From assembly GCA_001657325.1 (NCBI GenBank), contig LWRO01000002.1, positions 160,285 through 224,284 on the forward strand: 64,000 bases of DNA. The letters are read 5' to 3'. The notes under the pieces are model-generated. The model had not been told where the DNA came from. It saw only the letters and a list, made by a program, of their open reading frames with translations, and ran no database searches. Source of the stretch: Geitlerinema sp. BBD 1991-9. GTDB taxonomy: Bacteria > Cyanobacteriota > Cyanobacteriia > Cyanobacteriales > Geitlerinemataceae. Positions 23,583-54,212 of this stretch are shown in pieces. The translations under genes were made by a program, and so were the position numbers. Position 1 is the stretch's first letter. Every line of letters begins with the position of its first letter.

Positions 23583-23598
23583 TTTATCGGATTTAGAG
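23583..23598 (-). repeat. 16-nt partial repeat duplicated inside a spacer
   Basis: Directly after the repeat ending at 23582, TTTATCGGATTTAGAG is repeated once more, making an apparent 48-nt spacer. Likely slippage or imprecise repeat duplication. Confidence 0.9.
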
Positions 23599-32500: not shown

Positions 32501-35500
32501 CTAGAAGGGATTTTATCGGATTTAGAGTTCTACGCCTCCACCCCGTCGTCGGAAAACTACGCCAAATTCGTTTCAATCCCTAGAAGGGATTTTATCGGAT
32601 TTAGAGCTCAAAAGTTTTATCTGAGAGAGGGGAGCCTTTTGTTTCAATCCCTAGAAGGGATTTTATCGGATTTAGAGGGAAATTGGCTTCGGGGAACCAG
32701 CAGACAACACTGTTTCAATCCCTAGAAGGGATTTTATCGGATTTAGAGTAACCTATTTAAAAGAGGATGATTAATATGATGTTTCAATCCCTAGAAGGGA
32801 TTTTATCGGATTTAGAGGCTTAACAAAGCCATCTAAGTTAGTAGTGTCTTTGTAAGAGTTTCAATCCCTAGAAGGGATTTTATCGGATTTAGAGATTGAT
32901 GGCTGTTCCGACTATAGATAGGTCGTAGTTATCTAAGTTTCAATCCCTAGAAGGGATTTTATCGGATTTAGAGTTGAAACTGAATCTTATAGGTTCACAG
33001 GAAATTATGTTTCAATCCCTAGAAGGGATTTTATCGGATTTAGAGTCGGTAAGACCCATCCTCGAAAAGTTCAAGTGCGTGTTTCAATCCCTAGAAGGGA
33101 TTTTATCGGATTTAGAGTATGCCTGGATGGACAGCCCGTATTGCACGCACTTCTGTTTCAATCCCTAGAAGGGATTTTATCGGATTTAGAGGATGAGCCA
33201 CTAGATAGTCCATATTAGCTAGAAAAGTTTCAATCCCTAGAAGGGATTTTATCGGATTTAGAGTCGTTTTTACCTCAATGCTATTGAGGAGATGGATTGT
33301 GTTTCAATCCCTAGAAGGGATTTTATCGGATTTAGAGGTATCCCTAGATCTCGTTAATCTAGGTGATGTCAGTTTCAATCCCTAGAAGGGATTTTATCGG
33401 ATTTAGAGGATGGAGAAGAAATTTACTCTGCATCGTTCGCAGGGGTTTCAATCCCTAGAAGGGATTTTATCGGATTTAGAGTAGATGTAGAGAATCTTAT
33501 AGCCCAAACTTAAAAATAGTTTCAATCCCTAGAAGGGATTTTATCGGATTTAGAGTTAGACGCGAGGCAATGTAGAATATGCGATAAAAACTAGTTGTTT
33601 CAATCCCTAGAAGGGATTTTATCGGATTTAGAGAGCTGTTACGACAACGCTATTGAGGAGATGGATTGTGTTTCAATCCCTAGAAGGGATTTTATCGGAT
33701 TTAGAGTGGCGATCGATTTCGTCAAAGTAGCGATCGTATTCGTCTTGGCTGTTTCAATCCCTAGAAGGGATTTTATCGGATTTAGAGCTCACGCCAGCGA
33801 TTGGGAGGCGGGGGGGACGATCGTTTCAATCCCTAGAAGGGATTTTATCGGATTTAGAGCGGGTACGACTTCGGTTCGTATTCGTAGTCGTCGGGGTTTC
33901 AATCCCTAGAAGGGATTTTATCGGATTTAGAGAATAGAGGGTTCTATACGACCATTAGCTACTTATAGAGTTTCAATCCCTAGAAGGGATTTTATCGGAT
34001 TTAGAGATATTGACGCCCCTTAGAAATATTGGGGTTTTCAAGTCTGTTTCAATCCCTAGAAGGGATTTTATCGGATTTAGAGGAGCTAGTCGGTAAATCA
34101 TCTAAACCACACATCAGGTTTCAATCCCTAGAAGGGATTTTATCGGATTTAGAGATATAGAAGAGGGTAAAAAGAAGGCTAGAAGGTTAGGTGTTTCAAT
34201 CCCTAGAAGGGATTTTATCGGATTTAGAGCTCTTAAGGTTAAATGAATCTACACTGAGGGAGGTTTTGTTTCAATCCCTAGAAGGGATTTTATCGGATTT
34301 AGAGCTCAGCCAATCTTAGTGTCTCAGCTCGTTTAGATTCAGTTTCAATCCCTAGAAGGGATTTTATCGGATTTAGAGATATTTTTACATCACATCCACT
34401 CGAACATATTCTCGTTTCAATCCCTAGAAGGGATTTTATCGGATTTAGAGTGGAAAATAGATGAAATGGATTGATTCCTCCTGGGTTTCAATCCCTAGAA
34501 GGGATTTTATCGGATTTAGAGCTTAGATCAGTTGAGGGGGTATGTTATAGCCTCAGGTTTCAATCCCTAGAAGGGATTTTATCGGATTTAGAGGAAGAAT
34601 CAATGGCAGATTCCACGATATGACTTTGGGTTTCAATCCCTAGAAGGGATTTTATCGGATTTAGAGGACCTGAATCTAGATCTTCAAAATTGCTAGACCA
34701 CACAGTTTCAATCCCTAGAAGGGATTTTATCGGATTTAGAGAAGCACCGATCCTATGCACGGTAAAGTTACCAGGGGGTTTCAATCCCTAGAAGGGATTT
34801 TATCGGATTTAGAGGCGGCTATAAAGGAGGTTCGTCCGAACCTCCTTTATTGTTTCAATCCCTAGAAGGGATTTTATCGGATTTAGAGTTATTGTTTTCT
34901 ATCTTATAAAACTACTTGATCTAAGTTTCAATCCCTAGAAGGGATTTTATCGGATTTAGAGATGTCGTAGCATTAGCCAAATTAGACGCTTCTAAGTTTC
35001 AATCCCTAGAAGGGATTTTATCGGATTTAGAGCTCAATATTAGTGTAATTGCAATCACGCACTCATTGTTTCAATCCCTAGAAGGGATTTTATCGGATTT
35101 AGAGTCGCCAACAGCGCCGGAGGGATGCCGTTCTTCTCGGTTTCAATCCCTAGAAGGGATTTTATCGGATTTAGAGTATGCGGTATCGTTGGTGTCGTTG
35201 ACTTCTATGGCGTTTCAATCCCTAGAAGGGATTTTATCGGATTTAGAGGAGGGACTAGATCCTCTACATGGTGAGGTCGTTTTGGGGTTTCAATCCCTAG
35301 AAGGGATTTTATCGGATTTAGAGAAGTTTAACACCAACAGGTAGTAAAAAAGGTATTGAAAGTTTCAATCCCTAGAAGGGATTTTATCGGATTTAGAGAT
35401 TAACAGAATCTTTCATTTCCTCAGTTACATTTCCACCTTGTGTTTCAATCCCTAGAAGGGATTTTATCGGATTTAGAGTCTTAATTCTATAGAGATTTGT

Positions 35501-38500
35501 TAGCCAATGCCAAAAAATTGTTTCAATCCCTAGAAGGGATTTTATCGGATTTAGAGGATTGAATTAATCGAAAAAAGCAAGGATTTGGGGGTTTCAATCC
35601 CTAGAAGGGATTTTATCGGATTTAGAGTTTTCTCTGTATCTAAGTCAGAAGTCGTAAAAGTTGAAAAAGTTTCAATCCCTAGAAGGGATTTTATCGGATT
35701 TAGAGTAGGTAAATTTTCATTTTTTTTCTTCCATTGACTAGATTCAATATGTTTCAATCCCTAGAAGGGATTTTATCGGATTTAGAGCCTGAAAATATTA
35801 CGGCCGTTGCTACAGGTAAATCGTTTCAATCCCTAGAAGGGATTTTATCGGATTTAGAGCTGAGGAAGATATTTATAATGCCATAGACAAGTGGAACGAG
35901 TTTCAATCCCTAGAAGGGATTTTATCGGATTTAGAGGTGGAAAAGCAAGTACCGGGGTCAGTGGAGATCAGTTTCAATCCCTAGAAGGGATTTTATCGGA
36001 TTTAGAGGAGAATAGGACTCATGCGTCCTTTAGCCAATTGAGGACTAAGTTTCAATCCCTAGAAGGGATTTTATCGGATTTAGAGCTGAAGACAAATTAG
36101 ATAATATTAGTCAGACAAAGTTTCAATCCCTAGAAGGGATTTTATCGGATTTAGAGGATACGGTGACAAACTTGGCGGCGGCTACCGGGGGAACCGTTTC
36201 AATCCCTAGAAGGGATTTTATCGGATTTAGAGCTGTGAAGCATCCTAGCCATCATGGAAACCTGTTAGCAGAGTTTCAATCCCTAGAAGGGATTTTATCG
36301 GATTTAGAGGGTGGCGTCCTTCCCATCCCTGTAAGGCTGTAGGGTGGTTTCAATCCCTAGAAGGGATTTTATCGGATTTAGAGTTGCCGGATTGTCCGCC
36401 CCTCTACCCGCGCTCGTGTTTCAATCCCTAGAAGGGATTTTATCGGATTTAGAGTTAAAATCTATACCCAAAAACTTAACTATGGATCAGGTAGTGTTTC
36501 AATCCCTAGAAGGGATTTTATCGGATTTAGAGTTTCTGCCGCCCTCGATGCCGAACTGGAGATCCTCGAAGGTTTCAATCCCTAGAAGGGATTTTATCGG
36601 ATTTAGAGTTTAGAATTTACCGAAGCTGATTACAAAGAGTTAAGAGAAGTTTCAATCCCTAGAAGGGATTTTATCGGATTTAGAGGGAAAAATGTGTAAC
36701 TATTTCCCACAAATGGCTGAGTTTCAATCCCTAGAAGGGATTTTATCGGATTTAGAGTGCCAGGAGAGGATCTCCTCTCCGTTTTTAAAGATAGGTTTCA
36801 ATCCCTAGAAGGGATTTTATCGGATTTAGAGGGGAAATATCCCTCTGTCCACAAGATCCCGCACGTTTCAATCCCTAGAAGGGATTTTATCGGATTTAGA
36901 GAGTAGCTTTCGCGTCGGATGGTGCCGAAGCGATCGGTTTCAATCCCTAGAAGGGATTTTATCGGATTTAGAGATGTTTTGTTATCCGAGTCATAATCAA
37001 ACAACATAGGTTTCAATCCCTAGAAGGGATTTTATCGGATTTAGAGAGGAAGAAGTCGAAACGCTGGGGCGACTAATTCACGTTTCAATCCCTAGAAGGG
37101 ATTTTATCGGATTTAGAGGTACACCAACCCCGGATCGTCGGCGAACAGCAAGGTTTCAATCCCTAGAAGGGATTTTATCGGATTTAGAGTTTCTCTATTT
37201 TTAATTTTTAGTTAACGGTTGAATAGGTTTCAATCCCTAGAAGGGATTTTATCGGATTTAGAGCCCAGGGGTTCGAGTCGCCATCGAAAATCATGAATAT
37301 TGTTTCAATCCCTAGAAGGGATTTTATCGGATTTAGAGGCCGGAAAGGTTTTTGGCGGTGGCACATCTAGCAATGAGTTTCAATCCCTAGAAGGGATTTT
37401 ATCGGATTTAGAGGGAACGAAAGCGTACCAACAGGCGCGCGAGGAATTCGTTTCAATCCCTAGAAGGGATTTTATCGGATTTAGAGTTAGACTTCCAAAA
37501 AAAAGTCTAACAAAAAGTCTGTTTCAATCCCTAGAAGGGATTTTATCGGATTTAGAGAGCTTTCTCGCGACCTGGGCGCAAGTCAACCCTCGGTTTCAAT
37601 CCCTAGAAGGGATTTTATCGGATTTAGAGATTAATCGCGATGTCCGTATATTGGCGTGAGTATTCGCGTTTCAATCCCTAGAAGGGATTTTATCGGATTT
37701 AGAGAATATGGTCAGCTCGACCATATCTCCCGTGTCATGGTTTCAATCCCTAGAAGGGATTTTATCGGATTTAGAGAATAGGAATCCCTCCACTCTCTGA
37801 TGAGGAATGGGATGTTTCAATCCCTAGAAGGGATTTTATCGGATTTAGAGCCTACTGAGACACAATTAGAATTCTTATACTCTAAATTCTCAGTTTCAAT
37901 CCCTAGAAGGGATTTTATCGGATTTAGAGTTTAGATCTAAATCGTAATAAGGAGAGGGCTGAAGTTTCAATCCCTAGAAGGGATTTTATCGGATTTAGAG
38001 CATTTTTCTTTCTCCCATCGATTAGAATAAATATGTTTCAATCCCTAGAAGGGATTTTATCGGATTTAGAGTAGTTACCAGGGGGGCAGAATCCTACTCG
38101 TGGAAGTTTCAATCCCTAGAAGGGATTTTATCGGATTTAGAGCTGTGCAAGGTAAATTTGCATGAGGATCTCCTTCACAGTTTCAATCCCTAGAAGGGAT
38201 TTTATCGGATTTAGAGTAGAGCTACCATGGTGTTTATGTCTCCTATTTAGACTCTGGTTTCAATCCCTAGAAGGGATTTTATCGGATTTAGAGACCATTA
38301 TGAGGAGGGTTCCTCATATGAACTCAAGGTTTCAATCCCTAGAAGGGATTTTATCGGATTTAGAGACATTCAAAATCATCATAGGTTTGATTTTTAATCG
38401 TTTCAATCCCTAGAAGGGATTTTATCGGATTTAGAGCTCAAAATTAACCGATAATCCAAAGCTTATAGAAGTTTCAATCCCTAGAAGGGATTTTATCGGA

Positions 38501-41500
38501 TTTAGAGACTAGTCCGCCAATATTCTATAATGCAGTAGTTTTCGTTTCAATCCCTAGAAGGGATTTTATCGGATTTAGAGCCCAGTAGCCATCGGGGTTC
38601 GGTGTTAGAGGTACAAGTTTCAATCCCTAGAAGGGATTTTATCGGATTTAGAGTAGTGTGACTTCTTCTTCGTTACCACACTGATGGGGTATATTTGTTT
38701 CAATCCCTAGAAGGGATTTTATCGGATTTAGAGTTTACCTTGGGGAAACGACAATATGATGACCCCAGAAGTTTCAATCCCTAGAAGGGATTTTATCGGA
38801 TTTAGAGCTTCACCCTCTCCCGCAGTCGCGAAATCTAATCGCTTCCCTAAAGCTTCAAGTTTCAATCCCTAGAAGGGATTTTATCGGATTTAGAGTTTAA
38901 AGATTCTTCTATTTCTGCTTTTATTCTCTGTTTCAATCCCTAGAAGGGATTTTATCGGATTTAGAGTTGGAAGCCCCGTCGCTTTAGCGCGGGGATTGGT
39001 TACACAACTTGTCAGATAGTTTCAATCCCTAGAAGGGATTTTATCGGATTTAGAGTGTAAACCCAGTTGTGCCAAAATTGGTTCCGGTTTCAATCCCTAG
39101 AAGGGATTTTATCGGATTTAGAGATTCTGGCGGATTGACATAGGCATTGCTACTGCACGTTTCAATCCCTAGAAGGGATTTTATCGGATTTAGAGCATTG
39201 CCCAAAGCGTTCGGCGTCTGTTCGGCGGTTTCAATCCCTAGAAGGGATTTTATCGGATTTAGAGGAGGGTGTGGAGAGTCACGCTGAGCGCCTCGTCGAT
39301 GTTTCAATCCCTAGAAGGGATTTTATCGGATTTAGAGTGGAGGGGAGGTGGTAGTACCTCCCCGGTTGTGTTAGTTTCAATCCCTAGAAGGGATTTTATC
39401 GGATTTAGAGGCTACTCGTCCTCGCCGTCTTCGAGCCACAACTCGTTTCAATCCCTAGAAGGGATTTTATCGGATTTAGAGTCCAGATTTTGGGCGATAC
39501 TCGGAGGAAGTAGGCGCGGTTTCAATCCCTAGAAGGGATTTTATCGGATTTAGAGTGTATAATGGATACAAACAGACACAGCAGAACCTGTTTCAATCCC
39601 TAGAAGGGATTTTATCGGATTTAGAGCTTATTATCAAAATTAGAATCGGGGCAAAGAAATCTGTTTCAATCCCTAGAAGGGATTTTATCGGATTTAGAGG
39701 TAAGATAAGATGCCCGAAATCACAAATCCTCGCGCTGTGTTTCAATCCCTAGAAGGGATTTTATCGGATTTAGAGCGGCGTTCCGATCGAAGGCGATCGT
39801 CGTTGCATCGAGTTTCAATCCCTAGAAGGGATTTTATCGGATTTAGAGGCATTCGTTGCAAGGTTCTCCATCAATTGGGTTCAGTTTCAATCCCTAGAAG
39901 GGATTTTATCGGATTTAGAGATTCATTTAATTAAATCGTAATACCTATAGAAAATGTTTCAATCCCTAGAAGGGATTTTATCGGATTTAGAGACTCCTTT
40001 ACTTAAGAGGTAATCTGATAATTGGTGTTTCAATCCCTAGAAGGGATTTTATCGGATTTAGAGCTGAGTTGCCGTAATTGAATTTGTGTGCCGATTATAA
40101 GTGTTTCAATCCCTAGAAGGGATTTTATCGGATTTAGAGTTGTGGCATTCGTTGCAAGGTTCTCCATCAATTGGGTTCAGTTTCAATCCCTAGAAGGGAT
40201 TTTATCGGATTTAGAGATTATTGGGACGATACAGATTGGATCTAATTTTTGGTTTCAATCCCTAGAAGGGATTTTATCGGATTTAGAGTAAAGAGGATCT
40301 ATATTGGGTACAGAAAGAAAAAGGTTTCAATCCCTAGAAGGGATTTTATCGGATTTAGAGGTTAAATTTTTCGGTTTTGAATGTGGCATGAAGGAGTTTC
40401 AATCCCTAGAAGGGATTTTATCGGATTTAGAGTTTACGCCAAGGACGTAAACTAGTTTTAGCCGCTGTTTCAATCCCTAGAAGGGATTTTATCGGATTTA
40501 GAGCGGCGTCAGGCATATGTACCAGTGTCTGTGGATTGAACGTTTCAATCCCTAGAAGGGATTTTATCGGATTTAGAGTCGGACACAGATTAAAGAACAT
40601 GAGGCCTCAATGGTTTCAATCCCTAGAAGGGATTTTATCGGATTTAGAGGGGCTTGGCTAGCATCCTCGGGAGTTGTCGTCACTCAGGTTTCAATCCCTA
40701 GAAGGGATTTTATCGGATTTAGAGTCGGCTCCGTCAAGTTAGCCCGATCGCGCTTCGACATGTTTCAATCCCTAGAAGGGATTTTATCGGATTTAGAGTT
40801 TGGCAAAGGCATCCCGCGCCTCTTGAGTGTTGAGTTTCAATCCCTAGAAGGGATTTTATCGGATTTAGAGTTGTCAGTGTTCCACCCGGATAAGTATAAA
40901 CTAAGTTTCAATCCCTAGAAGGGATTTTATCGGATTTAGAGTTTAAAAGGCTTTGGTGGTGTTAGTAACCCCGTTGGTCTAAGTTTCAATCCCTAGAAGG
41001 GATTTTATCGGATTTAGAGATTTTTGCAAGAGTGCCTTCCTGTCTTAGTCCTCGTTTCAATCCCTAGAAGGGATTTTATCGGATTTAGAGGCTGATTTAA
41101 TTTAGGCTTTAGATCGTCTAATTCGATTTCAAGTTTCAATCCCTAGAAGGGATTTTATCGGATTTAGAGGGTTCCGCCCATGCCTTTGGCGTACTCCGTC
41201 CAGTAAGGGTTTCAATCCCTAGAAGGGATTTTATCGGATTTAGAGATTAGATCCCGGTAGGCCAGCTACAAAAGTACTGAGTTTCAATCCCTAGAAGGGA
41301 TTTTATCGGATTTAGAGATAGTAGGGTTAGGATCCACTTACTATGGCTTCCGTTTCAATCCCTAGAAGGGATTTTATCGGATTTAGAGGAAGAAAAATTC
41401 TTTAGTTTTTACTTTAGGTTCCTTAGGTTTCAATCCCTAGAAGGGATTTTATCGGATTTAGAGGTGGTGATTTTCGGGTGGATCTTTCACCCTATCGAGG

Positions 41501-42127
41501 TTTCAATCCCTAGAAGGGATTTTATCGGATTTAGAGTTGTCGTACCTTCAGATAATTGTGATTGACGACTTTTGACGTTTCAATCCCTAGAAGGGATTTT
41601 ATCGGATTTAGAGCATATATTTTAAATATCGACACTTTACTTTTGAGTTAGGTTTCAATCCCTAGAAGGGATTTTATCGGATTTAGAGGCTATGAGCCGG
41701 ACATCCAGCCTGGTGTACCTGATGAGTTTCAATCCCTAGAAGGGATTTTATCGGATTTAGAGCCCAATTCTACTAATTCTCTAATAGAAGCACTTTTGTT
41801 TCAATCCCTAGAAGGGATTTTATCGGATTTAGAGATATCAGGTTCCCCCTCCACGGTCTACTCTTGCCCGTTTCAATCCCTAGAAGGGATTTTATCGGAT
41901 TTAGAGGATAGCCCAATTCTACTAATTCTCTAATAGAAGCACTTTTGTTTCAATCCCTAGAAGGGATTTTATCGGATTTAGAGTTATTGGATTAGGTAGT
42001 ACAAAAGTAGCTAGAAGGTTTCAATCCCTAGAAGGGATTTTATCGGATTTAGAGAATAGTAGCCATATAAAACTATAAAATAAAAATTACGTTTCAATCC
42101 CTAGAAGGGATTTTATCGGATTTAGAG

Positions 42128-42391
42128 TCCTCCCACTTGAAACCTTGTTCCTATACAGTTTTCAAGGTGCAGTTGCGCGTATCTCCCCAACAATAACATC
42201 GATCGATCTGAAAACACAACCTTCAAACCCACTGCAAATCTCGAAAACCCTTATCACCAAAGCATTTCAGAAGTTGCGCGGATCGCCTTCTCAGATCGAT
42301 CGACCGAAACCCAGACTCCATCAGCCATCCAGCCCATTTTGCGCCGTTTCCCGTCCCAACACCCACCCCACCGCGCAAAATCCAACGAAAC
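42128..42391 (-). promoter_or_regulatory. CRISPR leader
   Basis: 264 bp of non-coding sequence between the cas2 stop and the newest repeat, on the upstream side for minus-strand transcription. Adjacent to the repeat is an imperfect inverted repeat, CACTTGAAACC (42134-42144) and GTTTTCAAGGTG (42158-42169), a candidate adaptation-complex anchor. The distal part is C/A-rich on the plus strand. A plus-strand frame across it is not credible. Confidence 0.75.
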
Positions 42392-42667
42392 TCAACAGAA
42401 AAACACCGTCGTATCTATCGGTGGCGGACAGCCAATTCGCTCAACCGTTCCGTGATTCTTCCCGCGCAAAAAGTAAAACAGAATGTTGTCCGTCTCGGGT
42501 TGAATCAACTTCTGCAACCGCCGCCGCAAACGGGCGTATTGTGTATCCGTCAGATCGCACTCGAACACACTGTACTGCATCCACTGACCGTAAGACTTCA
42601 ACACCTTATGAATCTTCGTGCGGCGTTTGTCTTCAGAGACATCGTAACAAACCACGACGTGCATCAT
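42392..42667 (-). CDS. cas2: Cas2
   Basis: 91 residues (or 90 from the second ATG at 42664). Starts MHVVVCYDVSEDKRRTKIHK with the conserved Asp after the first beta strand, then WMQYSVFECDLT. Structural partner of Cas1 in the spacer-integration complex. Last gene of the operon before the leader. Confidence 0.97.
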   Translation of the reverse strand: MMHVVVCYDVSEDKRRTKIHKVLKSYGQWMQYSVFECDLTDTQYARLRRRLQKLIQPETDNILFYFLRGKNHGTVERIGCPPPIDTTVFFC

Positions 42668-42680
42668 CGCTCGACTTCCC

Positions 42681-42790
42681 CTAAAACGATCCTTCCCTGG
42701 GGGCGAAGTAACCTCACGGCTGTAGGGGAGGGGTTCGCGATCCTACTCTACGGCTAAAACGATCCTTCCCTGGGGGCGAAGTAACCTCAC
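42681..42790 (-). CRISPR. Candidate two-repeat mini-array with an unrelated repeat, between cas1 and cas2
   Basis: An exact 37-nt direct repeat occupies 42681-42717 and 42754-42790 with 36 nt between. It begins CTAAAACGATCC and ends GAAGTAACCTCAC on the plus strand and contains a short CTTC...GAAG stem. Repeat and spacer sizes match the big array, but the sequence does not. The 36-nt middle is itself an imperfect hairpin (CTGTAGGGGAGG against CCTACTCTACGG), so a simple 73-bp tandem duplication or a structured RNA remains possible. Confidence 0.5.
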
Positions 42791-42800
42791 CCCCACGCAA

Positions 42801-43805
42801 CTAACGCAACACCAACGGTGGATATTTATCCGTTTCGCCCATCAAAAACTTCGCCAACAGTCGCGCCTGAATTTCAAACGCCTTTCGATACGTACACTTG
42901 CGCCCCATGACGGGATGCTTAAACTCCGATTGTTTCTTCTCTTCGTAAGCCCGCAAAAACACTTTCAATCCGTCCGAAGTCAACGAAACCGCCCCACTGA
43001 CAGGTTCTGTCTCGAAGTCTCCAGGAGTTAACAGGCGTTTGTTCGCCATCGCCAACGCCACCGCATCCACAACCAACGGACGAAATTCCTCCATGACATC
43101 CAACGCCAGGGACGGCCGACCGTATTGTTCGGTGTGAAGATAACCTAAGTAGGGATCGAATCCGACGATGTTCAACGCACTTTGAATGTCGTGGCGCAAA
43201 AGGGCGTAACCGAGGCTGAGTAGGGAATTGATGGGGTCGAGAGGCGGACGGCGATTGCGATGGGTAAAGCGAAAATCGTTACCGCGCACCAATTGACCGA
43301 AACAGCCGAAATACGTGGCACTTCCCGCCCCTTCATAGCCTCGCAATCGATCGATCTCTCGAACTTTTGGTAATGCAGCGATCGATCGATTGAGTTGTTC
43401 GATCGATTCCGTTAAAGTCAAATCGTCGTTTTCTCGTTGTTTGCGTTGCAACAAGCTGCGGTAATTTTTCAACTTTCCGCGAACGAATCCCCGAACAGCA
43501 TCGATCGATGTTTGGGTTTCTCCCGCCGCCCCCCACTGGGCCCGACGGACGAAAATATTGCGCGTGACTTCGGGTTCTAAGCGGCCTCGATAGCGTCCGT
43601 AGCGAGTGATGAAACTCAGGGGAATGTTGCGTTCTAGCAATTCCTCGACCACCGCCGGAGACACCGTCGCCCGTCCGAAGATTACCACGCCGTCAATTTT
43701 AATCAACGGTACATCCAGCAATCGATCGCGCTGGTACTTCACACTCAACCGTTCGTCTACTTTACCCAAAAACGCATCTTCTTGGGTGACATACACCGTT
43801 CCCAC
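42801..43805 (-). CDS. cas1: Cas1 integrase (type I-D)
   Basis: 334 residues. Catalytic Glu158 in LRGYEGAGSATYF, His224 in GYLHTEQYGRPSLALD and the acidic residue in VMEEFRP are all present. N-terminal beta domain begins MGTVYVTQEDAFLG. Start is GTG at 43805 with AAGGAG about 8 nt upstream. Forms the adaptation complex with Cas2, assisted by Cas4. Confidence 0.97.
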   Translation of the reverse strand: MGTVYVTQEDAFLGKVDERLSVKYQRDRLLDVPLIKIDGVVIFGRATVSPAVVEELLERNIPLSFITRYGRYRGRLEPEVTRNIFVRRAQWGAAGETQTSIDAVRGFVRGKLKNYRSLLQRKQRENDDLTLTESIEQLNRSIAALPKVREIDRLRGYEGAGSATYFGCFGQLVRGNDFRFTHRNRRPPLDPINSLLSLGYALLRHDIQSALNIVGFDPYLGYLHTEQYGRPSLALDVMEEFRPLVVDAVALAMANKRLLTPGDFETEPVSGAVSLTSDGLKVFLRAYEEKKQSEFKHPVMGRKCTYRKAFEIQARLLAKFLMGETDKYPPLVLR

Positions 43806-43950: not shown

Positions 43951-44556
43951 TCATGCTTCTCGGTATCGCGCCACTTTCGCCACTGCTTGCGGTAAGCAAC
44001 CGTCGTACAAACTACAGCCGCGACAGCGTTTTTCGTAAACGGCTGGGGGCATTTCTCCGGTTTGCAACATCTGGCGAACGGCTTCGAGGATTTCGACGGT
44101 TTTCCGACGCAATGTTTCATCGAATAAGATTTCCTGTCGCTGGTGCGATTGCAATGAATAAACGTAACCCTTCGCGATCGAACTTCCCGTCATTTCTTCC
44201 AAACACAACCCCTGGGCGCACACCTGCAAAGCGTCGTTGTCCCAAGGATTGCGCCGCCCTCGCTTGTATTCCACTGGGTAAATTTCTCCCGCTTGCGACT
44301 CCACGAGATCGGCTTTTCCGACGAGTCCGTAACGTTCGGATTTCAACCAGATCGATCGAACTTGCCACGTTTCATCGCGAAATCCTTCACCGAGGGTATG
44401 GACTCGATCGTGTAATGTCGTCCCTTCGATGGTGTAGGCGTTATCAACAAATTCTCCCGCACAAAACATCCGCCAGCAACGGTGAGGACAATAGGCGAAA
44501 TGATTCAGCGAGGCGATCGCAACTTCAGTCAAAGTGTCAACTAGAGGTTCAGTCAT
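43951..44556 (-). CDS. cas4: Cas4 exonuclease
   Basis: 201 residues. RecB-like nuclease core: GTTLHDRVHT, VGKADLVES and YPVEYKRGRR (D-ExK). Iron-sulfur cysteines: one in FAYCPHRCW near the N-terminus and a C-terminal CRGCSLYDGC. Cas4 trims prespacers and helps choose PAM-containing ones, which bears on the PAM-end sharing of spacer pairs. It is followed by a 145-bp gap to cas1. Confidence 0.95.
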   Translation of the reverse strand: MTEPLVDTLTEVAIASLNHFAYCPHRCWRMFCAGEFVDNAYTIEGTTLHDRVHTLGEGFRDETWQVRSIWLKSERYGLVGKADLVESQAGEIYPVEYKRGRRNPWDNDALQVCAQGLCLEEMTGSSIAKGYVYSLQSHQRQEILFDETLRRKTVEILEAVRQMLQTGEMPPAVYEKRCRGCSLYDGCLPQAVAKVARYREA

Positions 44557-44581: not shown

Positions 44582-45439
44582 TTATCGGGCATTTTTCCGT
44601 GCTACCCCCATTCCCATCGTAGTTTTTCGTCCGATTCCCGAATACACAGCGTAGTCCGCGAGAGCATTCAACGTTTGAATCGTTGCAGGCGAAACATCTC
44701 CTAAAATGCGATAGTCGATCGTTCCCACAGCACCGATAAACTTGCCAGATTTTCCCTTTTTCCGAAAATCAAAATCGACGATTTCTGTGTGTACGTTGAA
44801 ATAGCAGGGAAATACCGATTCAGTCGAAAATTCAGGTAGTTCGATGTCGCTATATTTGTTCCAAGAGTTCAGTAAACTTTTAAACACGGAGTCTTGGGTG
44901 GGTAAAGCCGTATCGTATTTTTGCTGTCGAAATGCTACAGGGGTGGCTAACTGAAATGAAATCCGACGGTTGCTATCCGATGCATTTTCGTAAAGTTCGG
45001 CGTAAGATGCAGCATTTGCCCAAGGTTGCGTCGATTGTGGCGTTCCGAGGATGCTGGTGATATGTAAATTTGCCGCACCTAAGTGCCAAGGTTGTCCTGA
45101 ATTCAAATTCAGCCAAAGGTGAGAAAGTTTTCCGAAAAGACTATCGTCGAGAAGAGAAACGCGCCACCAGCAAGAAGTTTCGGGTTGGATGGGATAGCGA
45201 TGTTGAAATTGCAGGATAGACGGAACGGGGGAACGTCGATCGCGGTGAGAATGGCGGACGGCTTGTAGCGGTGAGAGGGTGAATGCTTTGTCGGTTTTGG
45301 CTTCGTGAAGATGACTCGCTAGTTGGGGATCTACGGCGTTGACAGCAGTAAGAAAGAGGGCGTGAAGATGTCTTCCAGTTGCGTATTCGGGATAGATTGG
45401 GGTTTCGGGGACGAAGTTGAAAACAAGACTGTGAGGCAT
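44582..45439 (-). CDS. cas6: Cas6 crRNA endonuclease
   Basis: 285 residues. RAMP fold with the C-terminal glycine-rich loop YSGIGRKTTMGMGVAR and a preceding GTVGTIDYRILGD strand. Expected to cut in the repeat 8 nt before the spacer. Its start lies 3 bp after the cas5 stop, indicating tight coupling. Confidence 0.93.
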   Translation of the reverse strand: MPHSLVFNFVPETPIYPEYATGRHLHALFLTAVNAVDPQLASHLHEAKTDKAFTLSPLQAVRHSHRDRRSPVPSILQFQHRYPIQPETSCWWRVSLLDDSLFGKLSHLWLNLNSGQPWHLGAANLHITSILGTPQSTQPWANAASYAELYENASDSNRRISFQLATPVAFRQQKYDTALPTQDSVFKSLLNSWNKYSDIELPEFSTESVFPCYFNVHTEIVDFDFRKKGKSGKFIGAVGTIDYRILGDVSPATIQTLNALADYAVYSGIGRKTTMGMGVARKNAR

Positions 45440-45442
45440 TTT

Positions 45443-46153
45443 TTAGTTGAATCGATAGGTCATGTTAGCGGGAAGAAGAATCGTTTCTTTTTCGAGTTTA
45501 ATTTCGTAAACATCACCTTCAATTTTGACGTTACGAATTAAGCTCACTGGTGGCATATTGATGGTGTCAAAACTCATCACGCGATGACTAAACATCACGT
45601 CGAGGGGATTGAGGGGATAAGAAATCATAGCGTTTCGATTTTCTCGGAGTGTGGGTTTTGGGAGAGGTATAGCTTGAAACAAGGCTTTGCTCATCCATTT
45701 TCCGAGACGAATCCATGGAGAAAACTGCAATTCAGATTTAGAAATCACGAAACACTCAAATTCACTTTCAGGTGCGATTTCTTTCGCGCGTCCGAAGCTG
45801 GGAATATTTTTTTGAGTTTTTTGCATTTCTACGTGGTAGCGATTGTCAGCATATTTCCACGTATTCAGAACAGCGGTATGGTTTATCGATCGAGCGGGAG
45901 TCACGTAAATTCCTCGATCGTTGAGTTTGCTCAAATGTGCCTCGTACTGAGGTACTTGATGGCGGCAAAAATAGCGATATTCGTCGTCTGTTTCGACACG
46001 AGTTCCGTATCGATCGCTATCGACTAATCTCAAAGCATAACACAAAGCGTAATTATGCAAGATCGATTCGGTTTCGTACAGTCGTCCGATTTCCCGCGTT
46101 GCAAAATACAAGCTGTCGTGAAGTTCGATGTGACAGCGATAAATGTGAGTCAC
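45443..46153 (-). CDS. csc1: Cas5d-type Csc1
   Basis: 236 residues. N-terminus MTHIYRCHIELHDSLYFATR and the order between csc2 and cas6 identify the type I-D Cas5 (Csc1), which caps the crRNA 5' handle and helps recognise the PAM. C-terminal strands include GDVYEIKLEKETILLP. Confidence 0.92.
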   Translation of the reverse strand: MTHIYRCHIELHDSLYFATREIGRLYETESILHNYALCYALRLVDSDRYGTRVETDDEYRYFCRHQVPQYEAHLSKLNDRGIYVTPARSINHTAVLNTWKYADNRYHVEMQKTQKNIPSFGRAKEIAPESEFECFVISKSELQFSPWIRLGKWMSKALFQAIPLPKPTLRENRNAMISYPLNPLDVMFSHRVMSFDTINMPPVSLIRNVKIEGDVYEIKLEKETILLPANMTYRFN

Positions 46154-46252: not shown

Positions 46253-47254
46253 CTAATTTCCTGGTTGCTTTTTGCTCTTGATATGCGCTTTTTCGTAAGC
46301 CTTCGCTTCTGCATCAGCTTGCGACAAAATAGACCGAATTCCGTCTTCTTGGGAGGTTAGCGACTTCACTTCAGTCAACAACGATCGAAAGTCTTCACCG
46401 ATAAAATCGGTATGAACGATAAACTCTTCTGGCATCAAGTTTTGAATCGCTTCTGTTGCCTTTTCGAGAACTAGATCTTCATCGAGAGGATCGATCGAAT
46501 CGAGAACATCTTGAGGTAGTCGATCGAAAATTGCTTGAGTCCAACGTAAATTGCTGACAATTTCGCCATCTGCGAAAATCACGCCTAACAACTCATTGCG
46601 AACCCGTCCCGTTCGGGTGGTTTGTGCGCCGTAATGTCGCGTCCGCAGGATGTTGTTAAAAACATACAAGAAACTGGCTTCCGTGGGGTCGCGCAAGGTG
46701 ACAATACTGGGGAAAAACACTTGAGGACGGATGTGATCTTGTTGGTTAATCCGACTCGTTACTTCACCAGGTTTAGAATCGGCTTCTCCTTTGGAAGCCA
46801 TCGTGCCGCTTTCGTAGGGGGCATTAAGTGTAAAACTTTCGTGGGATTCGTCAAACGGCGTAATTGAAAAAGCTGTATCGACGACCACTTTCGACTTTTC
46901 CGAACCCGAGTCGCCAATGGCAAATCCATAAATAATACAGTCGGGATTGTCCATGCCAAACTTAACGTTGTACTCGCACTCTTCTGGGGTCATCAATTCG
47001 TATTTCCGCAACAGTTCCCGTCCGACTAAACGCTCTGGAGTCGATTGTTTGCGTTTGAACATTGCCAGTCGGCTAATGGTTTGGCTGTTTTCAATTCCGG
47101 CACGAACGCGAGCTTTATTGAGTTCGCCGTCGGTTTGAAATAGGGGGTAAGATTCAGTGATGCGAATCGTTAGAAAGTGGGCATATTTTCCCATAGGTTT
47201 ATAGGGAATTTCACTGTGGAAGAATTTGGAGTCGAGCGTTTTGAGAAGTGTCAT
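46253..47254 (-). CDS. csc2: Cas7-type Csc2 backbone
   Basis: 333 residues. Typical Csc2: a MGKYAHFLTIRITESYPLFQ strand, ELMTPEECEYNVKFGMDNPD, and the insertion RTRHYGAQTTRTGRVRNELLG. Several copies bind along the crRNA spacer to form the Cascade backbone. Lies 105 bp after cas10d. Confidence 0.95.
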   Translation of the reverse strand: MTLLKTLDSKFFHSEIPYKPMGKYAHFLTIRITESYPLFQTDGELNKARVRAGIENSQTISRLAMFKRKQSTPERLVGRELLRKYELMTPEECEYNVKFGMDNPDCIIYGFAIGDSGSEKSKVVVDTAFSITPFDESHESFTLNAPYESGTMASKGEADSKPGEVTSRINQQDHIRPQVFFPSIVTLRDPTEASFLYVFNNILRTRHYGAQTTRTGRVRNELLGVIFADGEIVSNLRWTQAIFDRLPQDVLDSIDPLDEDLVLEKATEAIQNLMPEEFIVHTDFIGEDFRSLLTEVKSLTSQEDGIRSILSQADAEAKAYEKAHIKSKKQPGN

Positions 47255-47359: not shown

Positions 47360-47836
47360 TTATTCTTCCTCATTTTTTGCTTCTGAAGACTGTTTTTGAG
47401 CCTTGTAGATTTCGTTTTCCTTGTCTTGTTCGAGGCGATAGAGGAATTCACAGGTATCTCGCAGGAGATTGATTTGTTTTCCTGCCAGACGCGCTCGATC
47501 GCCTTTAAAGGCTTTCTCAAAAACTTCTTCAACGAAGTAACGAGAAAAGTCTAAAACCTTCTGACGTTCAGTTTCTCGGTCTTGAATTTTCCAGTGACCT
47601 TCAGCCGTTGATGCACGAACACGATCCATGAGTTTAAACACTTCTGCCGCAACAACAGCTACAAGCATTTCTCCTTGAAATACACTTGTTTCTGCTTTTA
47701 AAAGAGTTTCGGATGCAATGTCCAGCGGCTTGAGAACAGCGTTTGATTTGGCGTTGTAGCGTTTATTTGCTCGGTAAAATTCGCGATACAACTCAACGAG
47801 TTTTTTCGGATGGTTGAGAGGTGATTCTTTTCCCAC
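47360..47836 (-). CDS. cas11d: Candidate Cas11d small subunit from an internal start in cas10d
   Basis: In type I-D systems the small subunit Cas11d is known to be translated from within the 3' end of cas10d. Here an in-frame GTG at 47836 (codon 1008) is preceded by GGAG with 9-nt spacing and would give a 158-residue, strongly helical protein beginning MGKESPLNHPKKLVELYREF. The existence of Cas11d is family knowledge; this exact start is inferred. Confidence 0.5.
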   Translation of the reverse strand: MGKESPLNHPKKLVELYREFYRANKRYNAKSNAVLKPLDIASETLLKAETSVFQGEMLVAVVAAEVFKLMDRVRASTAEGHWKIQDRETERQKVLDFSRYFVEEVFEKAFKGDRARLAGKQINLLRDTCEFLYRLEQDKENEIYKAQKQSSEAKNEEE

Positions 47837-50800
47837 AATTAGTTTCTCCAAAGTCCGATCGACCTCAACATAGGGGTCAAAACAGGGGTACAAGTCATAG
47901 ACGTACAGTTGAATTCGTTTGGAACTCGGTGCGTCGGCTTCCCGCGCACGCGACCACTTGGCAAGATAGGAAAAGACATAAAGCGGACTGGTTTCTAAAT
48001 TGTTGGCAAGTTCGGCAAGTTTTCCCCAGTTGGCATCGTAGCCTTTTTTCCCCCGTTTAATATTGACATCGAGATGGATGGTGTAAGCAGCGGTGAGGGT
48101 ATTGAGAGGAGACAAATGGAAGAAGTTTTCGAGTTCTGAAGTTTCTCGATTTCGGACTAATTCCGACCAGCCTTCGAGAAGGTGGTTGAGTCGGAATCGA
48201 TCGCGTTTCAGCAAAAGTCGGAACGCCTGGGGTGCGCTGTCTAGAAAAACGGTTTCTTCAAATTCTGCACCGTCGCGAAACGGCGGAATTGGAGATTCAG
48301 AAACTACTGTTTTGACATCGAGGATATTGGGAAAAGCTAAAGCTAACCACGCTGGCATCACCCAAGATTCGGTATCGGTGGGGTCGCGTCCAGGGGGTAA
48401 GGCAATAAAGTAAAAGGTGAGGGGTTTATCAGGTGGATAAGACAGTTTGAAGGTTCGATCGATCTTCCGATTTTTATCGTCCTCTGGTAGTTGTGTTTTC
48501 TGTTGTAAGTCTTCGTCAATAATAAAGGTATCGACAGTTTGATAGCGTTCCAAACTCAAATTGGCTTTGAGTTGTTCGGGATTGACAAAGTGATTGCGAA
48601 CTTCGGCATTGAAGCGCGTTTGTGCGATGTTGGTGTAAGCACGAGCGATGAAATGGTTGGTTTCTGGTGTAAAATAATAAGTTGGGTAAAAATAGAGATA
48701 GCGGTATTTGCCATCTTCAAATCGTTTGCCAACGGTTTGCGTTTGATTCATCAAAATTTGTCGTAACATCATTTCCGTTCCCGCAATGCTAGAGATGTTG
48801 CGTTTGGCGTTAGATCCTCCCAACATTTGTTTGTTGGTGTACACTTGCGGCGTGAATAAAACTGCCGATTCCATCTGTTCGCTGACGCTGTAAGGGGAGT
48901 GAGACAGAGAACAGAGAAGTTGACGACCGCGACCGGGTTTTTTTGCGGTTTGGTAGTGGTCGAGTTCTTGCAGGAAAATATTAGCTCGATCATCGGTATT
49001 TTCGTCGCGAGTTTGACCGGGTAACGCCACGACTCGCCGCGTCCAGTCGCGCAAGTCGTCCCAACCGTCGGCGAGATCGTATTCAGCGACAATGGGAGCA
49101 GTTAACTGGAGAACAAAGCCGATAATTTGTTCGCCGATTTGATGGATATCTCCTGTTTCTATACTTTTTCCTGGGTTGGCTTCGAGATACTTCGCCGCGA
49201 GGAAATACCATTCATAGGGAACGCCGCCAGTATTTCCTTTGAGTTTGAGACTTTTGAGCGTTTCGTTGATTTGTTGGATTTCGCGGATTTTGGGAATATA
49301 TCGATCGAGTTGCCACGCTTTGGCAATTTCGACGATTAAATTAGGATCGGGAAGTTTGGCGATCGCTTCTTTAGCTTTTTTCCCTTTGTGGGTTTCTTTC
49401 AAATGTGCTTCAATTTTTGCACGTCGATCGCCCCAAATTTTACGAGTTGCAACATCGCCAAATTCAGCAATGCAATCGATCCGAATCTCGTCCTCAAAGT
49501 TAAAATCGTAGTCCGTAGAGAGAACACCTTTCGCTTGAAACTTTTTTAGGTTGTCACTGCGACTCTTAGCAACCGATTTTTTCTTGGGATTCAGAATGCG
49601 AAGAGTTGCATCGAGTGCGACTTGCATTAAACCGCGATCGTCGAAAAACTGACTGTAGTAATCGGCGTATTTCATCCCCTTTCCATCCCGTCCGAATCCG
49701 GTTTGTTTGCGGCGAAGTTCCCCGGAACAGAGGGTTTTAATGCTGGAAACCACGCGATCGGGTAAGTCGTCTAACGAAACTTGCGGTGCATTTTTGGGAG
49801 TCAGATAAATGACACCTGTAGGAAGATAAAGAAGAGGTGTATAGCCGAGTTCGCGATGTGCGTCCATCACGGCGTTATTGACGATGTTGGTGAGAACGCC
49901 TCGGTTTTCAGAGATGGCGTGATAGGTGAATTTGAGTTCGCCGTCGCTGAGTCGATCGATCACTGTGAAAAGTTTATATTTCTCGGCATCTTGGGGATGT
50001 TTAACAATGGAAGATAGCAGATCGGCTAGACAACCTAAGTCGGTGAGACAGTCAATAGTTCGACTGTTAAGCTTACAATTTAAACCTGTCTCTGAGAAAT
50101 TGAGATTTGTGTCAGTTTTCTCTTGGACGTTGTAGGCGATGTAAAGTAAATCGTCGCGGTAGGTTCGCCATTCCTGGGGATTGTCGGGAAACAGGAAGCG
50201 ATCGATTCCCAAGGCGGGAACGAGAACGTCAAAGATTTCGCGATGTTCGTCGAGGGAAAGTTTGCGAGTATCTCGATCGATATCTCGACTCATTTCTCGA
50301 TACACTTCGGGAATTCCAGGAATGCGATGGTAGTCGAATTTTTCAAAGTCGTGGAGAACAAATCCTGCGAGTCCGAATTTGCGGCTAGAGTCGTCGATGA
50401 CTCGGCGAACCGTGGTATTAAGGGTTTGCAACCTACGTTCGATCGCGTTAGCTGGAAATAGTCCGTTGAGAATATGGGTGTTTAGCGATTGATCGGCCGC
50501 ATTATCGCGATGAACGGCTTTACGTTCTCCTCTGGCGACTCGTCGATCGAGTTCTTCAAAAAACCATCCCCCTTTTGCGGTAATGCCGATGGCGTATTTG
50601 AGTAAGTTGGGTAAAACAAACTCGGCAAAGTCCGCCATTACAGAATCATCAGCATTTGTCTTTTGGATGGCTTCTCGTAAGAGTTTGAGCGTGAGAAGTT
50701 CGCTGGAGATTTCGATGGTTCGATCGCCTTCTTCCTCTGTCGAACCGATGTCTTCAGAACTCAGGGACTCGAAATCAAATTCTTCAAATTTTTCAAAATC

Positions 50801-50857
50801 GTTCATCGTTTCAAATAAGTTGAGTTGTTGGGAATTTTCAGAATGTTGAGGAGACAT
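47360..50857 (-). CDS. cas10d: Cas10d (Csc3) with HD nuclease domain
   Basis: 1165 residues, the type-defining large subunit of I-D. The HD nuclease lies in the N-terminal third: NTHILNG (His128), FVLHDFEKFD (His169-Asp170) and FTYHAISENR further on. This replaces the Cas3'' HD missing from the helicase. The middle contains a Cas10-like palm without an obvious GGDD. The C-terminal about 160 residues are helical and likely also made separately as Cas11d. Start ATG at 50857; the frame of a DUF1016 remnant runs into it. Confidence 0.97.
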   Translation of the reverse strand: MSPQHSENSQQLNLFETMNDFEKFEEFDFESLSSEDIGSTEEEGDRTIEISSELLTLKLLREAIQKTNADDSVMADFAEFVLPNLLKYAIGITAKGGWFFEELDRRVARGERKAVHRDNAADQSLNTHILNGLFPANAIERRLQTLNTTVRRVIDDSSRKFGLAGFVLHDFEKFDYHRIPGIPEVYREMSRDIDRDTRKLSLDEHREIFDVLVPALGIDRFLFPDNPQEWRTYRDDLLYIAYNVQEKTDTNLNFSETGLNCKLNSRTIDCLTDLGCLADLLSSIVKHPQDAEKYKLFTVIDRLSDGELKFTYHAISENRGVLTNIVNNAVMDAHRELGYTPLLYLPTGVIYLTPKNAPQVSLDDLPDRVVSSIKTLCSGELRRKQTGFGRDGKGMKYADYYSQFFDDRGLMQVALDATLRILNPKKKSVAKSRSDNLKKFQAKGVLSTDYDFNFEDEIRIDCIAEFGDVATRKIWGDRRAKIEAHLKETHKGKKAKEAIAKLPDPNLIVEIAKAWQLDRYIPKIREIQQINETLKSLKLKGNTGGVPYEWYFLAAKYLEANPGKSIETGDIHQIGEQIIGFVLQLTAPIVAEYDLADGWDDLRDWTRRVVALPGQTRDENTDDRANIFLQELDHYQTAKKPGRGRQLLCSLSHSPYSVSEQMESAVLFTPQVYTNKQMLGGSNAKRNISSIAGTEMMLRQILMNQTQTVGKRFEDGKYRYLYFYPTYYFTPETNHFIARAYTNIAQTRFNAEVRNHFVNPEQLKANLSLERYQTVDTFIIDEDLQQKTQLPEDDKNRKIDRTFKLSYPPDKPLTFYFIALPPGRDPTDTESWVMPAWLALAFPNILDVKTVVSESPIPPFRDGAEFEETVFLDSAPQAFRLLLKRDRFRLNHLLEGWSELVRNRETSELENFFHLSPLNTLTAAYTIHLDVNIKRGKKGYDANWGKLAELANNLETSPLYVFSYLAKWSRAREADAPSSKRIQLYVYDLYPCFDPYVEVDRTLEKLIVGKESPLNHPKKLVELYREFYRANKRYNAKSNAVLKPLDIASETLLKAETSVFQGEMLVAVVAAEVFKLMDRVRASTAEGHWKIQDRETERQKVLDFSRYFVEEVFEKAFKGDRARLAGKQINLLRDTCEFLYRLEQDKENEIYKAQKQSSEAKNEEE

Positions 50858-51023
50858 AAAACTTGCAATCTTGTTCTACTGAATCTTGCTGAATAACGAT
50901 ATTGTGCTTCCAACCAATTTCTCGCGCTAATGGTGCGAGTTTTTCATTTGAAGCGTAGCTTTCATAAAAAAGCTTCATTCTCCAAAGGTTTGCGGCGTAG
51001 AATTCACTAATCCTCGGAAACTC
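50838..51023 (-). pseudogene. DUF1016 (YhcG-like) N-terminal fragment
   Basis: Between the nucleotidyltransferase stop and cas10d the minus strand reads, without interruption, a peptide containing AANLWRMKLFYESYASNEKL and LAREIGWKHNIVI. These are hallmarks of the DUF1016 N-terminal domain of PD-(D/E)XK-type YhcG proteins. There is no start codon in place and the rest of the protein is gone. It ends 20 bp inside cas10d in another frame. A remnant of a lost defence or mobile gene. Confidence 0.65.
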
Positions 51024-51348
51024 AGACTGTAATTTTTTTACGCGTTGCTGAGCGAGCGATATAGTGCGCGATTAAATCGGAACATCGATCGATCTCCACC
51101 AAGTCGAGATTATCGCTGGAGATATTGAAACAGTCGGCGATGATTCCAACATCTCGAAACCAGCCAAACCCTTCGATAGTTTTTTTGCGAAGTTCTTCGT
51201 CGTAAAGTGCCGCGAAATCCCAGTCACTTTTGGTGTGGGTGTCTCCCCTGGATTGGGAACCGAAGAGAACCAGCATTTTGAGATAGGGGATTTCTTGAAG
51301 AAGGCGATCGACGTTCGATCGAAGTTGCGTCAGTTGAGAAATTGCCAT
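51022..51348 (-). CDS. MNT-type nucleotidyltransferase
   Basis: 108 residues from the ATG at 51348. It carries the nucleotidyltransferase signature LVLFGSQSRGDTHTKSDWDF (GS...RG...SDxD), as in MNT antitoxins of HEPN/MNT pairs. Known MNT antitoxins can adenylylate their HEPN toxin; no HEPN gene is visible here. The open frame upstream of 51348 looks non-coding. It lies inside the cas operon between cas3' and cas10d. Confidence 0.8.
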   Translation of the reverse strand: MAISQLTQLRSNVDRLLQEIPYLKMLVLFGSQSRGDTHTKSDWDFAALYDEELRKKTIEGFGWFRDVGIIADCFNISSDNLDLVEIDRCSDLIAHYIARSATRKKITV

Positions 51349-51565
51349 TTTACGAAATCTCTGTTTTGAAGGAACTTGGGGAAGAGGAAAGAAGTATGCA
51401 GTTCGTACTAAAACTCTTGAAGCTTTCTTTATGGTGACTGAACCAGCCATGACGGGGGTTCGAGACTACCTACGCCTGAACTTAGTACTGAAAGCTGTTC
51501 GTTTTCTTTCCTCTTCCTGTGGTAAGGAGAGGTTGAGTACCCCTCCCACTTAGATATCGGATTGG

Positions 51566-52034: not shown

Positions 52035-54212
52035 TCAGGCGATCCATGTCTCACCTCCTCGGCTCTTGAGATACGCTGCCAACACATCCACCATCAACGC
52101 CGCCTGACCGATCGAAATCGAATAAGGTGGTATTGTTGCGTGAACGCTGGTTTCGTCGGAAATCGGATAAATGGCGAAGTGCATCGGTAAGCGGAGACGC
52201 TGGCGAACCTCCGTTGCGGGAAGCGGCAGAACGTAACACACCAACGCCTGCTTCTTGAGTCGCTGGTTAATCTGCCAAATCCAGGGATTGTCCGGTTGCC
52301 AGATTTGCACCCCCGCCAAAACCTGCACTTTCCACGCATTGGCGATCGATTCCAACTTGCCAGGATAGGTAAACTGCCAATTCAACCGTTCCTCGCGATA
52401 CCCCTTCAACCGCATGAAGCCGAGGCAATGCTTAAACCGTCCTTTGGCGATGGGTTCGCCAAGTCGATCGCTGGTTTCCTGTAACCGACGCAAAAATCCG
52501 GCTTCCGTCCACATCTCAATCTCTAAGTTGCTGAGAATCCCCGGTAAATCGTAGGTTTTGAATCGATCGAGTTCGTAAGGTTCTGTTTCGTCGTAAAGTC
52601 CGCATTGCAACGGACTCGAACCGCGAAAACTCCAAGCTTCTTCCGCGATCGGATTGTTCGACTTCCCCGAAATCGCGTTCCATTGTTCCTTTCCCTGCTT
52701 GATTAACGCCATCGAGCGATTCCAATTCGCCTTAAACGCCGCTTCGCAATCTCGACGAAATTCCTGGCGACTGTCCGTATACTGTTCTCGAATTTTGGGA
52801 GCGTTGAGATCGAAATAAAGTTTTATCGATTGAACGGCACCCCATTTTTGGTAATAGCCGCAAAAATCGTTGATTTGACGATATTCATCCCGAATTGCAG
52901 CGTTAAATGGCGTTCGATCGAACTGTCCTCCCGGTTCTAAAGCAGCATTCTCTTTTTCAAATAACCGTTCGACGAGAAACTTTGGAACTAACGCATAGGC
53001 GGTAAACTGATTAAATTTGACCAATTTTCCATCTCGATCGTATCCCTCGTGTCGTCCCAATCGTCCCAACCGTTGAACGAAATTTCCCGCATCGGACGAC
53101 TCGAAAAAGAGTAAGTTAATTTTGAAATCGACTCCCACATCGATCGTACTGGTTCCGATAACGAGATCGGCATCGAGAGAGTTGAGTTTGGTTTGCTTTC
53201 CCGACAATCCCGTGTTTTCGCCAACGGTTAAGCCGTGAGGTTCAAAATATTCTCGAAATCGAGGGACGAGGCGTTTGACGGAAGCGATCGAATTGAGAAT
53301 AATTGCACCTTTGCTCCCCGGCTGTTCGAGGAAGTGCTGTAAGATTCGATCGATATTCTCCTTGAGCCAAATTTCCGAAGCCTGAGCCGTCGATTCTAAA
53401 GAAATAAAGTTGAACTCGATTTCTCCAGCAATTTGTCGATATCCTTGACTTTGAAGGGTTTCAAGTTCTCGATCGCTGTCTGGAAATTCATATTTTCTTT
53501 CGATTTCTGGATTAATGACGCGATAGCGAAATTTAGCTAATTCGAGCTTTTCGAGAAGTTGTGGATCGGGTGTTGCTGACAAAAACAAAAACTTCTTACG
53601 ACGGTTCGTATTGCGAATCAACAACATTGTATTGATAACGCTTGCGACTTGTGGCGGTGCGAAGACGTGAAATTCGTCAAAAATAAAGAGGTCGAAATTT
53701 TTATCGATGCGATTCCAAAGTTTATCGGGGTTGTCGTAACGAGTTAAATACGCACCTCGGTGAAGATAATGAATGATATCGGGGTTGGATAGCAAGATTT
53801 CTGAATTTTTACCTCGACGAGCGATCGCATCGGCTTTTGATAAGTTTTCTCGTTCTGAAAATAACTCTAATTCTGCACCGCTTAACCGATTGAAACGTGG
53901 TTCGTTTGGCGGTTGAAACGTTGCCACATAATCGCCAATTTGTCGCTCTTGATCTCGTGCTAGTTCGTTGGTGGGATACATCCCCAAAGCCACGTTACCA
54001 TCGAGTAAAACCGTTGAATATCCGGCAAAACTTTTCCCGTCTCCTGTCATGGCAGTATTAATAATAACATCGATATTCGGGTCTTTTAAAGCTTGATAAG
54101 TTTCCGCTTGATGCCACATCCAAGACCAAGGCTTGGGAAGTTTTACCCCTTCGGGAATGACATCAGCAGGTGCCGAGAAAATCGGCTTGAGTGTGATGCG
54201 ATAGTCCGTCAT
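52035..54212 (-). CDS. cas3: Cas3' helicase (type I-D, no HD domain)
   Basis: 725 residues from the ATG at 54212 (MTDYRITLKPIFSAPADVIP); the open frame upstream is promoter sequence. Superfamily-2 motifs: Walker A TAMTGDGKSFA (53-63), DEFH box in LFIFDEFHVF (179-182), SAT in FLSATPD, and the C-terminal pair GTSTIDVGVDF and FVQRLGRLGRHEG. It unwinds target DNA while Cas10d supplies the HD nuclease. It is separated from the rest of the operon by a 1.2-kb island. Confidence 0.95.
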   Translation of the reverse strand: MTDYRITLKPIFSAPADVIPEGVKLPKPWSWMWHQAETYQALKDPNIDVIINTAMTGDGKSFAGYSTVLLDGNVALGMYPTNELARDQERQIGDYVATFQPPNEPRFNRLSGAELELFSERENLSKADAIARRGKNSEILLSNPDIIHYLHRGAYLTRYDNPDKLWNRIDKNFDLFIFDEFHVFAPPQVASVINTMLLIRNTNRRKKFLFLSATPDPQLLEKLELAKFRYRVINPEIERKYEFPDSDRELETLQSQGYRQIAGEIEFNFISLESTAQASEIWLKENIDRILQHFLEQPGSKGAIILNSIASVKRLVPRFREYFEPHGLTVGENTGLSGKQTKLNSLDADLVIGTSTIDVGVDFKINLLFFESSDAGNFVQRLGRLGRHEGYDRDGKLVKFNQFTAYALVPKFLVERLFEKENAALEPGGQFDRTPFNAAIRDEYRQINDFCGYYQKWGAVQSIKLYFDLNAPKIREQYTDSRQEFRRDCEAAFKANWNRSMALIKQGKEQWNAISGKSNNPIAEEAWSFRGSSPLQCGLYDETEPYELDRFKTYDLPGILSNLEIEMWTEAGFLRRLQETSDRLGEPIAKGRFKHCLGFMRLKGYREERLNWQFTYPGKLESIANAWKVQVLAGVQIWQPDNPWIWQINQRLKKQALVCYVLPLPATEVRQRLRLPMHFAIYPISDETSVHATIPPYSISIGQAALMVDVLAAYLKSRGGETWIA

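Follow-up and report, generated by a model that had tools for sequence, protein, structure and literature searches.

Off-target spacer integration is known mainly from cells that overexpress Cas1–Cas2. Nivala, Shipman and Church, in 2018 (doi 10.1038/s41564-017-0097-z), reportedly found hundreds of such sites in E. coli, and are said to have named Yersinia pestis and Sulfolobus islandicus as hosts of putative natural cases. For off-target integration in vivo, two later papers (PMC9456107 and PMC11788318) cite this work as Nivala et al. 2018, and it is with the work as it appears there that we compare our own. Two further systems lie close to the locus described here: canonical type I-D adaptation, modelled for Synechocystis as a staggered, repeat-length attack at the leader-proximal repeat followed by gap filling (PMC10212523), and orphan mini-CRISPRs or the ectopic repeats of CreTA, in which one or two repeat-like units lie near cas genes (PMC9458426).

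In a 64,000-nucleotide stretch of the genome of Geitlerinema sp. BBD 1991-9 (hereafter the window), a 37-bp sequence occurs twice between the cas1 and cas2 genes of a type I-D locus, once on either side of 36 bp of different sequence, and we regard this unit (42681–42790) as very probably the scar of a single off-target, or non-canonical, spacer integration by Cas1–Cas2. With the events attributed to Nivala et al. (2018) it shares the integration of spacer-sized DNA outside an array; relative to that work as the citing papers present it, the settings here are cyanobacterial type I-D loci, with one case beside cas1 and Cmr-like genes, several events fall in one genome, events lie mostly at cas genes and once inside cas1, and no target was detected to be like the native locus. 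With canonical type I-D adaptation it has in common a 37-bp duplication and a spacer-length insert, but its target is not the leader-proximal repeat and no leader motif adjoins it. Unlike CreTA, the window unit is unrelated to the host repeat, and we found neither a toxin nor a match to a target promoter. Natural off-target integration is a known but rarely documented kind of event, well supported here in a new setting; the clustering at cas genes and the self-disruption of cas1 look new.

The locus is of type I-D, and each of its eight Cas proteins exceeds its own NCBIfam cut-off. Its genes, all on the reverse strand, are cas3′ (the type I-D helicase; 52035–54302, TIGR03158), cas10d/csc3 (47360–50857, TIGR03174), cas7d/csc2 (46253–47254, TIGR03157), cas5d/csc1 (45443–46153, TIGR03159), cas6 (44582–45439, TIGR01877), cas4 (43951–44556, TIGR00372), cas1d (42801–43805, TIGR04093) and cas2 (42392–42667, TIGR01573). 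Next to cas2 on the same strand come a leader region with the conserved motif CACCTTGAAAAC (inferred extent 42128–42391) and an array of 260 repeats of 37 nt with 259 spacers of 30–52 nt (median 36; 23032–42127), which in crRNA orientation reads CTCTAAATCC...GGGATTGAAAC. This leader and those of seven other I-D loci share a conserved [AC]ACCTTGAAAAC some 30 nt upstream of the first repeat.

The linker between cas1 and cas2 (42668–42800, reverse strand) is 133 bp long, and comparison with relatives puts its ancestral form at about 60 bp. Within it, the cas2-proximal copy of the duplicated target (42681–42717) and the cas1-proximal copy (42754–42790), assigned like the genes to the reverse strand and reading CTAAAACGATCCTTCCCTGGGGGCGAAGTAACCTCAC on the forward strand, are 100% identical and 36 nt apart, just as a preliminary description of this DNA had claimed; the bases on either side rule out an extension of either copy by even one base. 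No third copy exists in the window at up to three mismatches (shuffling expectation 0), and the 151-bp region around the pair has only chance matches of 15–22 nt elsewhere in the 6.0-Mb genome, so that the pair is not a dispersed repeat. The size match that the same description found hard to dismiss is indeed very unlikely to be chance: the duplication has the length of the adjacent array's repeat, 37, and the insert that of the array's median spacer, 36.

It was on this geometry that the preliminary description had based its suggestions of a second array served by the same Cas1–Cas2 and of a regulatory, crRNA-like guide. A functional mini-CRISPR or guide between cas1 and cas2, processed by the host Cas6, would account for a repeat–spacer–repeat arrangement that fits the host array, and regulatory orphan or ectopic repeats are known (CreTA; PMC9458426); but the 37-mer, rightly described at the outset as unrelated to the array, agrees with the host repeat at 12 of 37 positions, not above background, and lacks both its GATTGAAAC end and the ATTGAAAC end. 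It also matches no CRISPR-repeat profile, whereas the true array repeats match CRISPR-DR5, and shuffled versions of it fold equally well; the host genome holds nothing that matches the middle, and the best resemblance to the leader motif in the flanks of the pair, 8 of 12 positions, is at background level. We consider a working mini-CRISPR or guide very improbable. What stands of the second-array suggestion is that the same Cas1–Cas2 is the likely agent, with no sign of use as an array; of a regulatory guide there is no sign. The unit has the look of something that CRISPR adaptation produced but, judged by its sequence features, appears to fail as an array, having a single spacer, no Cas6-type repeat end and no repeat-family match. 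Because the duplicated sequence lacks a GAAAC repeat end, crRNA production is unlikely, and because it is not a Cas6-type repeat the integration product is probably inert; growth of the linker from 60 to 133 bp could nonetheless alter cas2 expression.

The spacer-like insert itself (42718–42753, with no strand assigned) is unique sequence. Matching it to the host genome and to phages had been proposed as a way to place it, and no match emerged in the host genome, in 390 related genomes at up to three mismatches, or in phage collections. Since it forms an imperfect inverted repeat, and since cyanobacterial genomes commonly carry short dispersed repeats, in other cas1–cas2 gaps as well, one might take it for a short palindromic MITE- or REP-like element, 36 bp long, that had inserted with a long target duplication. 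Yet it is single-copy in this genome and absent from the 390 others, its fold is no better than that of shuffled sequences, and the inserts at the other sites described below are unrelated to it in sequence and differ in length; to our knowledge, moreover, known elements give target duplications of about 2–15 bp, a range that 37 bp lies well beyond. An element of this kind is, in our estimation, highly unlikely.

The state before insertion can be seen in a relative. Baaleninema simplex PCC 7105, the nearest (Cas1 89% identical), has a 61-bp cas1–cas2 gap with one stem-loop in one copy, and the gaps in other family members measure 11–15 bp. When one copy and the 36-nt middle are removed from the window gap (133 = 60 + 73, the 73 being 37 duplicated and 36 new), the remaining 60 bp align end to end with the B. 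simplex gap at 35 identities, a score equalled by 0 of 2,000 shuffles. Because this one-copy form aligns with B. simplex while the other family gaps are so short, the 73 bp were gained on this lineage; the B. simplex linker is only 57% identical, so that position, length, stem-loop and alignment score have to carry the case for homology. In the window, the cas1-proximal copy together with four G's just outside it (42791–42794) can form the ancestral stem-loop GGGGGTGAGGTTACTTCGCCCCC (42772–42794). The sister genus has the target, an ordinary intergenic stem-loop, in one copy. The search for the 37-mer at relatives' cas1–cas2 junctions that the preliminary description proposed thus finds a counterpart in B. 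simplex, as a single copy and not as a pair.

Other arrangements occur at cas1 in these relatives. B. simplex carries an exact 59-bp pair with a 24-bp gap (GGTGCGTGACTTG...; L010:1267–1408) just upstream of cas1, and in another relative (L032:2500–3620) about 1.1 kb in the cas1–cas2 gap reads like a small toxin–antitoxin pair between dispersed repeats.

For the window pair, we propose that Cas1–Cas2 (with Cas4), loaded with a prespacer of about 36 bp, would have attacked a site outside any CRISPR, the stem-loop linker of about 60 bp between its own cas1 and cas2 genes. Two strand transfers, on opposite strands and 37 bp apart, which is the spacing used on a normal 37-bp repeat, would then leave gaps whose repair copies the 37 bp to both sides of the new 36 bp. 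It is because repeat-length staggered attack and gap filling at a non-CRISPR site give such a product that we read 42681–42790 as off-target integration.

Similar pairs occur elsewhere in the same genome. A scan for isolated exact pairs, covering 2.73 Mb (46%) of the genome and with statistics that are post hoc, returned three besides the window pair with duplications of 35–38 bp and gaps of 38–45. One (duplication 36, gap 38; C97:79210, L155:19510–19619) has the end of a 36-nt-repeat array on one side and, on the other, a cas1 gene that is followed by cas2 and by genes resembling a type III (Cmr) set; the pair breaks a short ORF that is open if only one copy is read, and its empty site was sought among 28 relatives and not found. 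The other two, C12:10145 (35/39; L172:10145–10253) and C89:44109 (38/45; L137:4309–4429), sit inside dispersed repeats, and their one-copy forms align through the junction with numerous paralogues, the best being 97% and 95% identical, respectively; since these paralogues are uninterrupted, the empty sites of both exist within the same genome. Their duplications relate only loosely to the genome's 35-, 36- and 37-nt repeats; their inserts are within the spacer range of the I-D array, as inserts at the other sites are within the local spacer range. Among all the isolated pairs examined, several were set aside: a 33/33 pair that belongs to a three-copy tandem (L241), 40/26 and 30/32 pairs that match no repeat length (L173 and L015), and pairs in L070, L083, L094 and L100 that resemble genuine I-C style repeats.

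Three further cyanobacteria contain such pairs. In Cylindrospermum sp. FACHB-282 a 37-bp duplication surrounds a 37-bp insert in the I-D cas1–cas2 gap, near an array with 37-nt repeats; the pair lies inside a dispersed repeat, many paralogues of which are uninterrupted. On plasmid pPg_01 of Pseudanabaena galeata CCNP1313, a 37-bp duplication with a 34-bp insert (71 bp added) falls within cas1 itself (L271:8711–8818, that is, NZ_CP112875.1 at about 48208–48315), leaving a frameshifted and unannotated gene that reads as full-length Cas1 when one copy is taken. The array beside this broken cas1 has 83 repeats of 37 nt, from which the system was active earlier; the gene is also separated from cas2 by a 7-bp tandem run. 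Plasmid pNsp_a of Nostoc sp. ATCC 53789 has a 38/39 pair at the cas6 end, between two arrays with 37-nt repeats, and the corresponding position in Nostoc sp. UHCC 0302 has no interruption. The arrangement thus recurs at six sites beyond the window, and a single-copy, uninterrupted site was found for six of the seven pairs overall, the window pair and five of the six others.

These recurrences bear on the idea that a 73-bp tandem duplication, one middle of which later diverged, or some other repair-made duplication, produced the window pair and matched repeat and spacer lengths by chance. The genome does have isolated direct repeats of other sizes, and in Calothrix sp. NIES-3974 an 83-bp unit, repeated in tandem about five times and unlike the window pair, fills the cas1–cas2 gap (L062:10999–11430). 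But the middle resembles neither flank although the 37-mers are still identical, which does not fit a tandem duplication with later divergence. Of nine exact isolated pairs of 30–45 bp in the 2.73 Mb (the L241 tandem left out), four have gaps of 33–45, against 0.7 expected under uniform gaps (0.0035, post hoc). Of the five array-adjacent cases, four have a duplication of the adjoining array's repeat length (37, 37, 37 and 36) and the fifth has one that is a single base longer (38 versus 37), and four 50-kb stretches (200 kb) taken from the Pseudanabaena and Nostoc plasmids at a distance from arrays and cas genes hold no isolated pair of at least 24 bp. We judge duplication of this kind improbable, and retain off-target integration.

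Spacers commonly have no identifiable source, and the inserts behave likewise: those searched gave only chance-level matches in phages, plasmids and IMG/VR, so that no PAM was identified either, and none is a copy of an existing spacer in its local array (for the Cylindrospermum insert the comparison covered only the spacers of that array). The addition, its exact lengths, its uniqueness and its recurrence with empty sites are direct observations; that Cas1–Cas2, rather than another enzyme, was the agent and that the 36 bp are foreign we infer. The targets resemble host repeat ends and the leader motif at background level, not significantly; likeness to the native leader–repeat junction is a reported tendency of off-target integration rather than a requirement.

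Of the seven sites, five are found at cas genes, and one of these lies inside cas1. Within the Geitlerinema sample, two of four events lie no more than 3 kb from one of five cas1 genes, where 0.02 are expected (p 0.0002), and if the window event is left out, since the search started from it, one of three does (p about 0.016). In the other organisms the search centred on the surroundings of cas1, so that they speak for occurrence and not for enrichment. Together these numbers suggest, rather than prove, a proximity bias towards cas genes, which, if true, resembles the cis preference of some transposases. Tentatively, and with somewhat less than even confidence, we put forward Cas1–Cas2 mis-integration as a recurrent mutagen in cyanobacteria that might prefer its own neighbourhood, scarring its own genes and, in P. 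galeata, inactivating cas1.

The cases suggest that adaptation can strike its own genes, and if the bias holds, adaptation would have a cost or brake built into it and might also seed new arrays. The signature is readable, consisting of a repeat-length duplication, a spacer-length insert and an empty site, as seen in type I-D loci; with it, both what adaptation costs and how new arrays originate become countable in sequence databases, and isolated one-spacer 'CRISPRs' from annotation programs may often prove to be scars.

The type I-D locus of the window has some further features. Its array is very long, and to the left of 23032 part of the DNA resembles decayed repeats. Two of its spacers, close to each other (41761–41796 and 41910–41945), have 36 nt in common (CCCAATTCTACTAATTCTCTAATAGAAGCACTTTT plus flanks), with one extended by GATAG; they overlap, with one source and a shift of about 5 nt. 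Between cas10d and cas3′, at 51022–51450, lies a gene for an MntA-like nucleotidyltransferase that scores slightly under its NCBIfam cut-off, and pairs of DUF86 and nucleotidyltransferase genes are present in other I-D loci also.
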